NCBI RefSeq assembly: GCF_900086705.1
Contig: NZ_LT575483.1
Span: 1,569,534-1,633,533, forward strand
Origin: Massilibacillus massiliensis
GTDB taxonomy: Bacteria; Bacillota; Negativicutes; FLKF01
Direction of reading: 5' to 3'
Length of the DNA stretch: 64,000 nucleotides
A model generated the notes under the pieces. It had not been told where the DNA came from. It ran no database searches and saw only the letters and a program-made list of their open reading frames with translations. Below are positions 946 through 50,921 of the stretch, piece by piece; within the stretch, counting starts at the first letter, position 1; each line of letters opens with the position of its first letter. The position numbers were made by a program, and so were the translations under genes.

Positions 946-1434
946 GCGTTGTTTCCTTTCCGTCCCGTTAGTTTTGACCATCCTTATCCCGATTGGTTAC
1001 GGCAGATGTTGTCTCATTTACAGTGGGGACTCTACTTCAACTGATTGATTGTTCAGCCCTTTGCTCCATTTCCATTACAGAAATTTCTTCACTACTACGG
1101 CTTATGCTGACTTCTCACAGTTTGTTGTTACTCGGTTAATGGAACCGCTGTGAGATCTCCCCGATTAAGGTGCGAACTCTTTCCCTTCATATATCCGCCG
1201 CATTTACTTCGTTCCTACAAATGTGATAGTAATTAGACTTCGCTTTGTCTTGCAAGCTTATCTCTCGGAACCCAGCCTTCTATGCGATTTCTGTCCGTCG
1301 GACCAAAGGTTTGCCTACAGCTTCCTTCAGATTCAACCTCACGATTGTCACCCTTGCTGTTCAGCTATACACTTCCCACTATCCGGGCGTATTAGGGACT
1401 TTCACCCTCAAGAGTTCGCCCATGTCGGGCGAAC
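1..1434 (-). mobile_element. Group IIC intron, 5' portion
   Basis: On the minus strand the intron begins GTTCGCCCGACATGGGCGAA at 1434 and continues with GGGTGAAAGTCCCTAATACG, GAATCTGAAGGAAGC, GGCAAACCTTTGGTC and ATGAAGGGAAAGAGT, the domain I landmarks of bacterial class C introns (Oceanobacillus O.i.I1 type). It lies directly behind a terminator hairpin plus six T, the preferred target of class C introns. The first five bases are GTTCG rather than the usual GTGYG. The change is matched in the opposite arm, so the first stem is a perfect 8-bp helix. Domains V/VI and the 3' end lie outside the window. Confidence 0.9.
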
Positions 1435-9784: not shown

Positions 9785-9867
9785 ACTCAATATATTAAGT
9801 AACTACATATAGAACCTTTATAGACAACCTATAGACAAAAGACCGTAGGCTAACAGTAAGCACGCAA

Positions 9868-9995
9868 ATACGTTCCGAAGGATGAAGAAAAACCGACTTA
9901 CGTAAAAAATCCATTTGTTTGAGCGAAGCAAGCTGAGGATTTTAGTAAGTCGGTCTTTTTTCAAATATTTTGGAGTAATGCCAAAAGTCCATCCA
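9868..9995 (+). repeat. 3'-end composite repeat, copy A (short, diverged)
   Basis: It shares with the other copies the block ACGTTCCGAAGGATGA, then the long hairpin with outer stem ACCGACTTAC (9892-9901) and GTAAGTCGGT (9945-9954), apical GAGCGAAGCAAG, the trailing T run, TCAAATATTTTGGAG and a truncated GCCAAAAGTCC. The palindrome and the proximal hairpins of the full copies are absent. It lies downstream of the GT9 gene and reads in the same direction. Confidence 0.8.
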
Positions 9996-11280: not shown

Positions 11281-11716
11281 TCCTTTTGTCATCGACACAA
11301 AAGGACCAAAAAGTCTAGGCCTGCGTCCTCCAAAATACTTGAAAAAATAGTGGCTTGCTAAAATCCTCAACTCGCTTCGCTCAGACAAACGGATTTCTTC
11401 ACGCAAACCACTATTTTTTCATCCTTCGGAACGTATTTTTCCGGAAAAGGCCAGAGAACGAAAAAAACTGCCGCATTAAAATGCGACAGTCAAGCTATAA
11501 AAAAAGCAACTCGTATTCGCATAGGTGAATACGAGTTGCTGAAATACGTTCCACTTATTAACTAGTACGAAGATAGGTTGCCGGTTGGCGAGAAGTGCCT
11601 AGATGCTAGGCGCGGCAAGGGGATGTGAAGGAGTCGTACTCGTGTACGTCGACGAGCAGCCCCTTGCTGCAACGACGCAGATGGGCGCTTATCGCCAGCC
11701 CGCGGCCTATCTGTCC
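11281..11716 (-). repeat. 3'-end composite repeat, copy B (full length)
   Basis: Read on the minus strand it starts 11 nt after the stop of the epimerase gene at 11728. First comes the 156-bp imperfect palindrome (11716-11561). Next is the hairpin AGCAACTCGTATTC/GAATACGAGTTGCT with a T7 run, then CTGTCGCAT/ATGCGGCAG with a T7 run, then GGCCTTTTCCGGAAAAATAC. The long hairpin follows with stem TAGTGGTTTGC/GCAAGCCACTA and T6, and last the hairpin GTCCTTTTGT/ACAAAAGGAC. Small open frames inside it are not genes. Confidence 0.85.
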
Positions 11717-11727
11717 CTAGTTTGTCC

Positions 11728-23335: not shown

Positions 23336-23606
23336 AATAGTGGTATCGCATTAAAATGCGACACCACTATTATTTTCGTTCCTGGCCTTTTCCGGAAAAA
23401 CACGTTCCGCAGTATGAAAAAATGCCAACTTGCGTTAAAAAATCTGTTTGTTTGAACGAAGTGAGTTTACAGATTTTAGCAAGTTGGCATTTTTTCAAGT
23501 GTTTTGGAGGTTCTAGGCCTAGCCTTTTCGTTCTTTTGGGCAATGCTAAAAGGACATCTACGTGCTTAGTAATACATCAAGATTTTCACAAACAAAATTT
23601 TAATGC
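23336..23606 (+). repeat. 3'-end composite repeat, copy C (no palindrome)
   Basis: It starts 13 nt after the TadG-like stop. Proximal hairpin AATAGTGG.../...CCACTATT around ATCGCAT/ATGCGAC (23336-23370), then GGCCTTTTCCGGAAAAACAC. The long hairpin has stem TGCCAACTTGC/GCAAGTTGGCA and apical GAACGAAGTGAG, ending TTTTTTC. Then CAAGTGTTTTGGAGG and the hairpin TTCTTTTGGGCAATGCTAAA. An AT-rich tail ends in TTAATGC. It reads in the direction of the upstream gene. Confidence 0.83.
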
Positions 23607-32382: not shown

Positions 32383-32470
32383 CATCGTATTATGCAACCA
32401 GGCAGTCATAGAATAGATCTTTAGACCCACGGCTTTGCGTCCCCACCTTTCGATAAGTTTGCTAACTGTT
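32383..32470 (-). promoter_or_regulatory. Cyclic-di-GMP-I (GEMM-I) riboswitch
   Basis: On the minus strand: GCAAACTTATCGAAAGGTGG, then GGACGCAAAGCCGTGGGTCT and AAAG, an intervening variable arm, then ATGACTGCCTGGTTGCAT. These are the class I landmarks: GNRA-capped P2 (CGAAAG), GGGACGCAAAGCC core, and the CCTGG tetraloop receptor followed by TTGC. It lies in the leader of cpaB, about 130 nt before its start. A short GTACAA/TTGTAT hairpin with a T run (about 32366-32382) follows and may be the expression platform. Confidence 0.93.
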
Positions 32471-32760
32471 TTATCAATATGAAAATTTCCAAATTTTATT
32501 AGATAAATTGTTTGTTAATAAAATAATACATCATTGCCTATAAACAAACAAGTACTTAAAAGTTAAAAAAATGTTAAAAAATTCATTTATTTACAAGCTC
32601 ATAAATAGTAAAATATCCCAATATGCTTGAAAACGTTAGAACTAACTTTGTTTAAGTTACAATTTTAAATTTAAATTTTTATTTCAAAATGAATCTTTAG
32701 TCCTAATTTTATTGCAGTATTATTTTAGATTATAATATAGTAAAAAGGAGCTTTACTTTT
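32471..32760. other. Divergent intergenic region upstream of tad operon and tadV
   Basis: Very AT-rich, no gene. It must carry the promoter of the riboswitch-led tad operon (minus) and that of tadV (plus), for which TTTTAGATTATAATATAG at about 32723-32740 offers a TATAAT-like -10. Confidence 0.45.
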
Positions 32761-34833: not shown

Positions 34834-35280
34834 GGTCCTTTTGGCATTGCCCAAAAGAACGAAAAGGCTAGGCCTCAAGCCTTCAAAATACTTGAAAAAT
34901 GATCGGCTTACTAAAATTCGCAAACTCACTTCGTTCAGACAAGCGAATTTCTTAACGTAAGCCGATCATTTTTCATCCTTCGGAACGTATTTTTCCGGAA
35001 AAGGCCGGGAGAACGAAAACAAAGCAAAAACTGCCACATTAACGTGCGACAGTCAGATGGCACAACAAAGCAACTCATATTCACAAAAGTGAATATGAGT
35101 TGCTAAAATCGGTTCCACTTATAAACTAGTACGAAGATAGGTTGCCGGTTGGCGAGAAGTATTCAGATGCTAGGCGCAACATGGGGATACGAAGGAGTCG
35201 TACTCATGTACGTCGACGAGTAGCACCTTGTTGCAACGACGCAGATGAGTGCTTATCGCCGACCCGCGGCCTATCTGTCC
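34834..35280 (-). repeat. 3'-end composite repeat, copy D (full length)
   Basis: In minus-strand order: 156-bp palindrome (35280-35125), 19 nt after the stop of the ABC binding-protein gene. Then the hairpin AGCAACTCATATTC/GAATATGAGTTGCT, the hairpin CTGTCGCAC/GTGGCAG, and GGCCTTTTCCGGAAAAATAC. The long hairpin follows with stem TGATCGGCTTAC/GTAAGCCGATCA, inner ATTCGC/GCGAAT and apical GAACGAAGTGAG. Last is TTCTTTTGG/CCAAAAGGA. Several stem positions differ from copy E, with the partner base changed to match. Confidence 0.86.
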
Positions 35281-35299
35281 ATATGTCTGTCTATACTAT

Positions 35300-38360: not shown

Positions 38361-38440
38361 TACTTTTCATATATGTTTAATATGTTTTATATGGTAAAAA
38401 AGAGATTGTTGCAATAAGAATTTGTTTGCAACAGGGGGGG

Positions 38441-38870
38441 TCCTTTTGGCATTGCCCAAAAGAACGAAAAGGCTAGGCCTCAAGCCTCCAAACTACTTGA
38501 AAAAATGCCGACTTACTAAAATCCTTAACTCGCTTCGCTCAGACAAACGGATTTCTTAACGTAAGTCGGCATTTTTTCATCCTTCGGAACGTATTTTTCC
38601 GGAAAAGGCCGGGAACGAAAAGAAGCCGCCGCACTTTTAGCGCGACAGCCAGTAAACATAATAAATTTTTATATTGATAGATTATAAAATAGCTGAAACC
38701 CGTTCCACTTATAAACTAGTACGAAGATAGGTTGCCGGTTGGCGAGAAGTATTCAGATGCTAGGCGCAACATGGGGATACGAAGGAGTCGTACTCATGTA
38801 CGTCGACGAGTAGCACCTTGTTGCAACGACGCAGATGAGTGCTTATCGCCGACCCGCGGCCTATCTGTCC
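38441..38870 (-). repeat. 3'-end composite repeat, copy E
   Basis: On the minus strand the 156-bp palindrome (38870-38715) begins 11 nt after the pyridoxal kinase stop. The second hairpin of the other copies is replaced by an AT-rich stretch (about 38650-38695). Then CTGTCGCGC/GTGCGGCGG, GGCCTTTTCCGGAAAAATAC, the long hairpin TGCCGACTTAC/GTAAGTCGGCA with apical GAGCGAAGCGAG, T6, and TTCTTTTGG/CCAAAAGGA. Confidence 0.86.
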
Positions 38871-38881
38871 ACAGCTTGCCA

Positions 38882-45148: not shown

Positions 45149-46324
45149 ATGAAATATAATTTTGATGAAATGATCGATAGAAAAAACACCAACTCTCTAA
45201 AATATGATTTTGCAGTCGAGCGAAATAAACCTGCCGATGTACTTCCCCTTTGGGTTGCGGATATGGATCTAAAAACCCCGCTTGAAGTGCGCGAAGCACT
45301 AAAAAAATCTGCCGAACACGGAATTTTTGGTTATTCCGATGTGAAACTCGAATATTTCCACACACTGCATACATGGTTTAAGACGAACTTCGCTTGGGAT
45401 ACCAAGCCGGAATGGCTTGTAAAAACCCCCGGTGTAGTATTTGCAATCTGCACAGCAATTCGTGCCCTCACGGAAAAAGGTGACGCCGTACTGATTCAAC
45501 GCCCCGTCTACTATCCTTTTTCTTTTTCCATCAAAGACAATGAACGCAAACTAGTAAATAATCCGCTTGTTTATAAGAACGGTCAATACGAGATTGACTT
45601 TGCGGACTTCGAACAAAAAATCATCGATAATCAAGTGAAGTTGTTTATCCTCTGCAGTCCGCATAATCCTGTTGGCAGAGTATGGACAAAAGAAGAACTC
45701 CTTAAAGTTGGCGATATTTGCTTAAAACACAATGTCATCGTTGTTGCAGATGAAATTCACGAAGAATTTATTTATGAAGGATTTCAACATCATGTGTTTG
45801 CAAATTTGAAACCCGAATTTAACGATATTACCATTACTTGCACAGCACCAAGTAAAACTTTTAATCTTGCTGGTTTACAAGTTTCTAACATTTTTATCGC
45901 CAATGCAAGCATTCGTCACCAGTTCAAAAAAGCCATGGATAGAACCGGTTATTGTGAATCCAATGCGATGGGACTTGTAGCTTGTCAGGCTGCTTATACT
46001 TATGGACGAGATTGGCTAGATCAATTAAAAACCTATTTAGCTGAAAATCTAGCTTTTACAAGAACTTTTTTAGCTGAAAAAATTCCACAAATAAAACTCG
46101 TTGAACCGCAGGGAACTTACCTCATCTGGCTGGATTGTTCTGGGCTTCATTTAACTGATAAAGCTCTCGAGGATCTTATCATCAACAAAGCCAAACTTTG
46201 GCTTGATGCCGGTACGATGTTCGGCCCTGAAGGCTCCGGTTTTGAACGCATCAATATTACCTGTCCAAGAGCAACACTCGAAAGAGCTTTACACCAATTA
46301 GAAAAAGCAGTCAACGAATTATAA
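45149..46324 (+). CDS. patB: Cystathionine beta-lyase-type aminotransferase (PatB/MalY)
   Basis: A protein of 391 aa, class I/II aminotransferase fold of the MalY/PatB group. VLPLWVADMDLKTPLEVREA (group-specific WVADMDF-like), KTPGVVFAICTAIRALTEKG, ILCSPHNPVGRVWTKEELLK, VVADEIHEEFIYEGFQH and the PLP Lys in TCTAPSKTFNLAGLQVSNIF. It cleaves C-S bonds of cystathionine or cysteine conjugates. Last gene of the cymR operon. Confidence 0.92.
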   Translation: MKYNFDEMIDRKNTNSLKYDFAVERNKPADVLPLWVADMDLKTPLEVREALKKSAEHGIFGYSDVKLEYFHTLHTWFKTNFAWDTKPEWLVKTPGVVFAICTAIRALTEKGDAVLIQRPVYYPFSFSIKDNERKLVNNPLVYKNGQYEIDFADFEQKIIDNQVKLFILCSPHNPVGRVWTKEELLKVGDICLKHNVIVVADEIHEEFIYEGFQHHVFANLKPEFNDITITCTAPSKTFNLAGLQVSNIFIANASIRHQFKKAMDRTGYCESNAMGLVACQAAYTYGRDWLDQLKTYLAENLAFTRTFLAEKIPQIKLVEPQGTYLIWLDCSGLHLTDKALEDLIINKAKLWLDAGTMFGPEGSGFERINITCPRATLERALHQLEKAVNEL

Positions 46325-46395: not shown

Positions 46396-46424
46396 TTTAC
46401 TTTACGTATAAAATCTACTATAAT
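46396..46424 (+). promoter_or_regulatory. Promoter reading across the small-peptide locus (antisense)
   Basis: TTTACT (46396-46401), 17-nt spacer, TATAAT (46419-46424). It has no open frame of its own downstream, so it probably makes a short RNA antisense to the peptide mRNA, ending at the terminator 46603-46628. Confidence 0.7.
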
Positions 46425-46446
46425 GAACATATACTAAATAAACCAA

Positions 46447-46472
46447 AAACGCCCTGTGCTTGCAGGACGTTT
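46447..46472 (-). terminator. Terminator of the small-peptide mRNA
   Basis: On the minus strand AAACGTCCTG/CAGGGCGTTT with loop CAAGCA, then TTTGG. The single mismatch is a G.U pair only on the minus strand, so the hairpin is adapted to that direction. Confidence 0.75.
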
Positions 46473-46490
46473 CGGTTGAGTAAGTGGGGT

Positions 46491-46577
46491 TTACCTGCAG
46501 AATTCAAATAGCGCGGCTAACGCTAAAATGAACTTGCTGGAAATTGCTAGCTTGAGTTTACCAAATTCCAGTTGCAA
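46491..46577 (-). CDS. 28-residue hydrophobic peptide, candidate type I toxin
   Basis: TTG start 8 nt after GGAGG within AAGGAGGTGATT, a full-length match to the 16S anti-SD. The peptide is QLEFGKLKLAISSKFILALAALFEFCR after the initiator, cut here into two parts: amphipathic QLEFGKLKLAISSKF, then hydrophobic ILALAALFEFCR. Stop TAA at 46491-46493. It has its own promoter (TTGTAA-18-TATAAT, 46663-46634) and terminator (46472-46447). A second promoter reads the opposite strand across the whole unit. Family not recognised. A structural or regulatory leader is the alternative. Confidence 0.55.
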   Translation of the reverse strand: MQLEFGKLKLAISSKFILALAALFEFCR

Positions 46578-46602
46578 GGAAATCACCTCCTTATTCAGTT
46601 TT

Positions 46603-46628
46603 AAGGACGTAGCGTCAACTACGTCCTT
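46603..46628 (+). terminator. Terminator of the antisense transcript (and of the cymR operon)
   Basis: A perfect 10-bp stem AAGGACGTAG/CTACGTCCTT followed by ATTTTATTATAG. On the other strand it forms a hairpin in the 5' leader of the peptide mRNA, which may sequester or expose its ribosome site. Confidence 0.8.
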
Positions 46629-46633
46629 ATTTT

Positions 46634-46663
46634 ATTATAGATGATTTCAGCCAAATTTTACAA
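46634..46663 (-). promoter_or_regulatory. Promoter of the small-peptide mRNA
   Basis: Minus strand TTGTAA (46663-46658), 18-nt spacer, TATAAT (46639-46634). Predicted start near 46627, about 35 nt before the ribosome site. Confidence 0.65.
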
Positions 46664-46684: not shown

Positions 46685-46721
46685 AAAACAGCTTTCCTCC
46701 ATACTGGAAGAAAGCTGTTTT
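46685..46721 (-). terminator. Terminator after the 138-aa membrane protein gene
   Basis: The stem AAAACAGCTTT/AAAGCTGTTTT has a further paired region in the loop and a T run on the minus strand. Confidence 0.8.
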
Positions 46722-46795
46722 CATTTTCACTCGTGGGATTCAAACGCACAACGTTATTTTGTTTATATCCTTACTTTAATCTACTGATATCATTC

Positions 46796-50404: not shown

Positions 50405-50469
50405 AGAGCAGGGCTGTTGCATTAAATAGTATTTATACACCCTTTAGTCACTCTATAAATACATAGGTA

Positions 50470-50908
50470 TCCTTTTGGCATTGCCCAAAAGAACGAAAAG
50501 GCTAGGCCTCACACCTCCAAAATACTTGAAACAATACCGACTTACTAAAATCCTTAACTCGCTTCGCTCAGACAAACGGATTTTTTAACGTAAGTCGGTA
50601 TTGTTTCATCCTTCGGAACGTATTTTTCCGGAAAAGGCCCCGGGAATGAAAAAACTGCCGCATTAAAATGCGGCAGTCAGCCCGTAAGCAAAGCGGCTCG
50701 TATTCACATAAGTGAATACGAGCTGCTAAACCGTCCGTCCCACGACTTATAAACTAGTACGAAGATAGGTAGCCGGTTGGCGAGAAGTATTCAGATGCTA
50801 GGCGCAGCAAGGGGTTGTGAAGGAGTCGTACTCGCGTACGTCGACGAGCAGCCCCTTGCTGCAACGACGCAGATGAGTGCTTATCGCCAACCCGCGGCCT
50901 ATCTGTCC
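50470..50908 (-). repeat. 3'-end composite repeat, copy F (full length)
   Basis: Minus strand: 156-bp palindrome (50908-50753), 13 nt after the antiterminator stop. Then AGCAGCTCGTATTC/GAATACGAGCCGCT, CTGCCGCAT/ATGCGGCAG with T6, and GGCCTTTTCCGGAAAAATAC. The long hairpin has stem ATACCGACTTAC/GTAAGTCGGTAT and apical GAGCGAAGCGAG; then TTCTTTTGG/CCAAAAGGA. Confidence 0.86.
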
Positions 50909-50921
50909 CTATGTTCCGAGC

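Follow-up and report, generated by a model that had tools for sequence, protein, structure and literature searches.

Within a 64,000-nucleotide stretch of the genome of Massilibacillus massiliensis (the window), a short frame for a hydrophobic peptide lies between two promoters that point at each other. This raises the question of whether the locus represents an antisense-controlled toxin module, a regulatory gene of another kind, or a fortuitous arrangement of transcription signals.

Layout of the locus

The first-pass annotation had described two complete transcription units facing each other, and the parts of both were recovered: on the minus strand, a TTGTAA-18-TATAAT promoter with a ribosome site, the TTG frame of 28 codons, and its terminator; on the plus strand, a TTTACT-17-TATAAT promoter facing the frame. 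The features of the locus, and two unrelated RNA elements found elsewhere in the window, are as follows.

46634..46663, minus strand: promoter of the peptide mRNA, TTGTAA-18-TATAAT (promoter scan, 10/12)
46602..46629, minus strand: hairpin in the 5' leader of the peptide mRNA, with a stem of 11-12 bp and a loop of about 4-6 nt; on the plus strand, a possible antisense terminator (hairpin search and folding)
46581..46592, minus strand: Shine-Dalgarno (SD) sequence AAGGAGGTGATT, inside the near-invariant leader AACTGAATA..GGAGGTG
46491..46577 (stop counted), minus strand: 28-codon TTG frame for the peptide MQLEFGKLKLAISSKFILALAALFEFCR, subfamily A, GRAVY 0.92
46474..46490, minus strand: 3' UTR segment ACCCCACTTACTCAACC, the expected partner of the leader, weak in the window copy (fold)
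46446..46473, minus strand: terminator of the peptide mRNA, GAAACGTCCTG..CAGGGCGTTTT followed by TGGTTTATTT (hairpin search, model R1)
46396..46424, plus strand: antisense promoter TTTACT-17-TATAAT, pointing into the peptide unit (promoter scan, 10/12)
46431..46639, plus strand: predicted antisense RNA, starting about 7 nt past the -10 box and spanning the entire peptide mRNA, with an uncertain end
1169-1348, minus strand: group II intron D1-D4, RF02001 (Rfam, 136 bits)
32390-32473, minus strand: c-di-GMP-I riboswitch, RF01051 (Rfam, 62.8 bits)

The TTG frame (46577-46491, minus strand) translates to LQLEFGKLKLAISSKFILALAALFEFCR. The locus is flanked on one side by the 3' end of an aminotransferase gene (45149-46324; Aminotran_1_2), which we take to be PatB-like, and on the other by a minus-strand frame of 138 codons, beyond which lies a SpoIID gene. 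Its two promoters are the best-scoring (10/12) among 11 promoter-like sites between 45400 and 47700, where shuffled sequences average 5.7, and its hairpins at 46602-46629 (plus strand) and 46473-46446 (minus strand) are two of seven terminator-like hairpins, compared with 1.7 in shuffles. Promoters and hairpins alone are weak evidence, and the locus stands above chance because it is conserved; a chance arrangement of signals is ruled out by its paralogues and by conservation across the class.

Copies in the genome and relatives in the Negativicutes

A search for paralogues in the genome and in relatives, which the first-pass annotation had proposed as a check, was productive on both counts. 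A nucleotide search with the locus returned 21 matching pieces in the same genome; once these were merged and a covariance model built on the 3' module (R1) was applied, 16 copies were counted (E 1.3e-17 to 2.5e-8). The copies are dispersed on both strands of the chromosome, and 15 of them lack an overlapping open reading frame of at least 80 codons; in the exception (L028), a frame of about 86 codons runs across the copy. The ten scanned proteins that flank the copies belong to ordinary cellular families. Another dispersed repeat, distinct from this family and about 450 bp long, occurs in the window at 34834-35283, 11281-11719, 38439-38873, and 50468-50911 (plus strand) and at 23370-23568 and 9866-9975 (minus strand); it has 47 matching pieces in the genome, about 20 of them near full length, with 77-92% identity.

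The mRNAs of the 16 copies share pairwise identities of 0.42-0.88 (median 0.55), and in the alignments few if any copies lack the -10 box, leader hairpin, ribosome site, frame, terminator, or antisense promoter. The -10 box of the peptide promoter is TATAAT, or TAAAAT/CAAAAT in three copies, and the -35 box is variable and not conserved. The stem of the leader hairpin is altered on both arms among the copies (AAGGACGTAG/CTACGTCCTT, GCAAGCACGG/CCGTGCTTGC, CGGACTAG/CTAGTCCG, and others) and is followed by AACTGAATA..AGGAGGTGA and the frame; then come CCGAAACGTCCTG..CAGGGCGTTTTTGGTTTATTTAGTATATG and, in reverse complement, TTTACA-17-TATAAT. Many copies with a poor -35 box have in common a box like TGGNAATATT, located some 10 nt ahead of the -10 box of the toxin promoter, a possible activator or repressor site. 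In two loci of the family, L012 (417-538; a 7-nt deletion) and L045 (1381-1507; stop codon lost), the peptide frame has decayed and the promoters and hairpins are retained.

Relatives of the locus occur across the class. A sequence model of the leader (R2) matches 36 of 380 class genomes and 20 of 102 genera, and a reading of these loci, which left out G027 and G002, found an intact frame of 28-33 aa in 29 of the 36 genomes; in G001 the stop is lost and the frame extends to 47 aa, and the locus read in each of G011, G058, G292, and G106 has a short or broken frame. The exact leader pattern is present in 21 of the 380 genomes and 12 of the 102 genera, with no match to a reversed control pattern. 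Model R1 matches 24 of 300 class genomes before discards; six of its loci (L060, L061, L062, L063, L066, and L067), with neither leader nor peptide, were dropped as chance matches, and L053, where the 3' part alone matched and no leader was present, was left out afterwards. All 27 class loci fetched from outside the own genome carry a correctly placed frame of 29-33 aa, those of L090 and L099 having been seen as L057 and L054, which are the same loci. In a phylum-wide sample of 398 genomes, the leader pattern was found in the own genome and only twice outside the class; both outside matches are attributed to chance, as neither has a hairpin or a peptide, and matches in Runella were likewise rejected, the terminator hairpin alone having matched.

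The named relative that carries copies is a Massilibacillus MAG, whose genus is now listed by NCBI as Anaerosinus (Negativicutes). One of its copies, at a contig end, adjoins the equivalent PatB-like aminotransferase gene in the same orientation (85.7% identity over 391 residues of the aminotransferase); the site is common to both genomes and therefore shared, most simply by descent. Among viral contigs (IMG/VR), five of 80 pattern-matched stretches were counted as members on the basis of leader hairpin and peptide (L112, L151, L153, L175, and L178), the least certain being L151, which lacks a recognisable antisense promoter; the remaining pattern matches looked like chance when read for the same two features. 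L175 adjoins integrase, repressor-like, and amidase genes, and L178 adjoins antirepressor, HNH, and Mu Gam-like genes.

Peptides, mRNA folding, and the predicted antisense RNA

The peptides comprise at least four types, and their length is held at 28-33 aa while the types differ. The own genome encodes six copies of type A (MQLEFG..ISSKFILALAALFELCR), including the frameshifted L012, and ten of type B (MKFRF..EGTVLVKVVALIAFILKVLFT); other genomes encode relatives of type A (MRFETKWF.L.VSSGFLWMIYQIIRELWK), type C (MWISPRVIVWLIIAITIILLRP..ITFWFK), and type D (MDLETKN.KLHVSSKFVIAVATALCMLAAIRW). GRAVY ranges from 0.2 to 1.9 and net charge from 0 to +5, subfamily A being moderately hydrophobic (0.2-1.0). 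Within the types, differences are most frequent at the third codon position, and dN/dS is about 0.30 for five own A copies, 0.48 for nine own B copies, 0.25 for eight C loci, and 0.24 for eight A loci from other genomes. The first-pass annotation had made its reading depend on conservation of the frame, and the frame is indeed kept and under purifying selection. As expected of type I toxins, the family combines a small hydrophobic peptide with a ribosome site of its own and conservation at the protein level.

Profile searches of the peptides against Pfam, NCBIfam, PADLOC, and PDB sequences gave no match, and the single match in PHROGs (E 0.47) is not credible. No Rfam family reaches its gathering score in the locus, and the weak matches below that score belong to varied families. 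Type B and C peptides have no tblastn match in phages or plasmids, nor have type D peptides in plasmids, and the window DNA has no match in plasmids; on this basis a plasmid or named-phage origin is rejected.

All 51 collected loci fold a leader hairpin, and the sequence of its stem varies widely among them. The set includes near-identical loci (e.g., L112/L064, L153/L047, and L058/L095), does not represent 51 independent events, and owes 35 of its loci partly to a filter demanding a stem. The stems could not be aligned by MAFFT, which resulted in a model without base pairs, and the covariation of the leader stem is read from individual stems and is not a statistical test. RNAalifold gave no consensus pairs for a mixed A alignment (A7), 40 pairs with five double changes and little covariation for type B, and 33 pairs with five double changes for type C. 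The window mRNA folds with -69.2 kcal/mol (z -6.1). When the leader hairpin and the terminator are left aside, the central domain still folds more stably than shuffled sequence in nearly all loci, with a median z of -3.95 and values below -1.5 in 50 of 51 (window, -2.9).

For most other genera, closure of the ribosome site by the 3' UTR of the full-length mRNA is predicted. The stop codon of the A relatives and of the C loci precedes CCTCC.(.)TATTC, which is complementary to GAATA..GGAGG; by eye, a leader TAC is matched by GTA in the 3' UTR of L052, L057, L071, L076, and L092, and a leader TAG by CTA in that of L046, L047, L048, and L050. For the majority of C loci, and likewise of A loci from other genomes, the computed probability of an open SD sequence is 0.00-0.03 at full length and mostly 0.25-0.83 once the 3' UTR is removed; in the 35 loci from the stem filter, the ribosome-site window for this probability and for duplex scoring is off by at least one base (mostly GAGGT, not GGAGG). 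The window copy shows no extra closure (0.26 versus 0.23 with shuffled bodies), and its duplex between leader and 3' UTR is no better than those of shuffles (91/200). Its 3' UTR pairing flanks the ribosome site and does not cover it, and without the 3' part the site is covered by a local hairpin. Judged by the probability of an open SD sequence, closure is about as weak in most of the remaining A and B copies of this genome. Each structural prediction for type I modules that can be tested in sequence finds its counterpart somewhere in the family, not all of them in the window copy.

An opposite-strand promoter scoring at least 10/12 lies 30-140 nt past the stop codon in 37 of the 51 loci, as opposed to 3.6% of shuffled regions, mostly at a distance of 56-73 nt. 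It occupies a fixed place in 14 of the 16 own copies; L022 has lost the stretch that holds it, and L023 has a different sequence at that place. The mRNAs of these two copies are 83% and 88% identical, respectively, to that of L014, which suggests that they may be controlled in trans by the antisense RNA of this paralogue.

The hairpin at 46602-46629 had been assigned a double role, as leader hairpin of the peptide mRNA and as end of the antisense RNA. The first role is borne out, but the second is doubtful: the T-run is not conserved in other genera. On the plus strand of the window, the hairpin abuts the complement of the adjoining -10 box; the T-rich stretch behind it overlaps this complement, and the T-run exists for that reason. 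In other genera, the bases between the -10 box and the hairpin (e.g., TATAATGTAAATGGGACGAG) give no T-run. A search for perfect stems places a separate terminator-like hairpin about 50-85 nt further on in 11 of the 16 own copies and in several other genera, and a stricter search based on folding recovers one in 6 of the 16; in the window, a bidirectional hairpin at about 46692-46722 offers an alternative end. An obligatory end of the antisense RNA at this hairpin is not supported, and because the T-run is not kept and separate hairpins lie downstream, the antisense RNA is expected to run through the toxin -10 box in many copies.

Function and relation to known type I systems

The family is real and conserved; judging from its sequence, it looks like type I toxin-antitoxin modules and probably works like them. 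The paralogues, the selected frame, and the retention of antisense promoter and leader hairpin support the layout proposed by the first-pass annotation as a candidate. We give a probability of about three in four to the reading that the locus is one of 16 copies of a previously undescribed type I toxin-antitoxin-like family in Negativicutes, with an mRNA folded end to end and under antisense control. The course of events that we infer, from transcription and processing to membrane insertion and toxicity, would begin with an mRNA of about 190 nt in which a stable 5' hairpin and a strong ribosome site precede the frame for a hydrophobic peptide of 28-33 aa and a 3' terminator. At full length, this mRNA would fold end to end, and the segment that spans and follows the stop codon would close, or at least enclose, the ribosome site, which would become open once the 3' end is processed or lost. 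The antisense RNA would start just past the mRNA terminator, run back across the entire mRNA, and pair with any translatable form, leading to its block or degradation; if it failed, the peptide would be made and inserted into the membrane, and the cell would be slowed or killed.

The same sequence evidence would also fit a non-toxic small membrane protein under antisense control that modulates a membrane enzyme or transporter, its amount being tuned by the antisense RNA, and many copies do lie in ordinary chromosomal surroundings beside metabolic genes. However, for a regulator of one target it would be odd to occur in sixteen copies, to come in two or more unrelated peptide types within the same genome, and to include a decayed copy (L012), whereas phage-side members and a closed mRNA in many loci are usual for toxins; we therefore consider a non-toxic function unlikely. 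If the locus encoded a structured non-coding RNA and an antisense RNA as its partner, the strong folding would be accounted for, as would a leader hairpin that is retained despite changed stem sequences, but every copy has a near-invariant ribosome site and a start codon, and the excess of third-position changes, the low dN/dS (0.24-0.48), and the constrained length of 28-33 aa across types make an untranslated frame highly improbable.

The 16 dispersed intergenic copies with 42-88% identity might also be taken for a miniature mobile element that keeps transcription signals for its own spreading and carries the peptide incidentally. This is very unlikely, because the conserved unit stops at the two promoters, no terminal inverted repeats are seen by eye in the alignment of own copies, the frame is under purifying selection, and one site is common to another genome. 

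We regard as evenly balanced the wider proposition that one RNA chassis (a covarying 5' hairpin, the AACTGAATA-SD leader, an anti-SD segment, a terminator, and a back-to-front antisense promoter) serves as a class-wide platform fitted with at least four unrelated membrane peptides, giving up to 16 paralogous and possibly mutually insulated modules per chromosome, with L022 and L023 perhaps held by the antisense RNA of L014.

Among known systems, TxpA/BsrG and Hok/Sok likewise consist of an antisense-controlled membrane peptide, and the hok mRNA is inert until processed at its 3' end. Their peptides are longer than those of the Negativicutes family, which have no profile match in Pfam, NCBIfam, or PHROGs. 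In Clostridioides difficile, type I modules (CD2517.1-RCd8 and others) resemble the family in their overlapping, convergent toxin mRNA and antisense RNA and in the presence of several loci per genome; they belong to a different bacterial class, and the comparison is one of descriptions (PMC6563280). The main text of that review of clostridial type I systems does not refer to Negativicutes, and no description of a type I system in this class was found in listings of the open literature.

A close architecture is that described for AapA/IsoA of Helicobacter pylori, which is present at six chromosomal loci (PMC6733600). In AapA3/IsoA3, a 30-aa peptide is encoded by a 225-nt mRNA that is kept inert by long-distance 5'-3' pairing, which traps the SD sequence, and is opened by 3' truncation; the antisense RNA converges from the opposite strand and is module-specific, and the same account names a non-translatable primary transcript as a major hallmark of type I loci (eLife 2019; PMC6733600). 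By contrast, the Negativicutes family has a universal, separate, stable 5' hairpin, its predicted antisense RNA spans the mRNA from end to end, it numbers 16 copies in this genome, and a single leader serves at least four peptide types. The likeness concerns the described architecture, not a comparison of peptides or IsoA RNAs, and membership in the AapA family is not claimed.

The family would add to the Negativicutes a type I system in which numerous natural paralogues and four peptide types share a single RNA scaffold. It would provide a ready set for studying how antisense modules avoid cross-talk, how the loss of an antisense RNA is tolerated, and why one chromosome carries sixteen of them.
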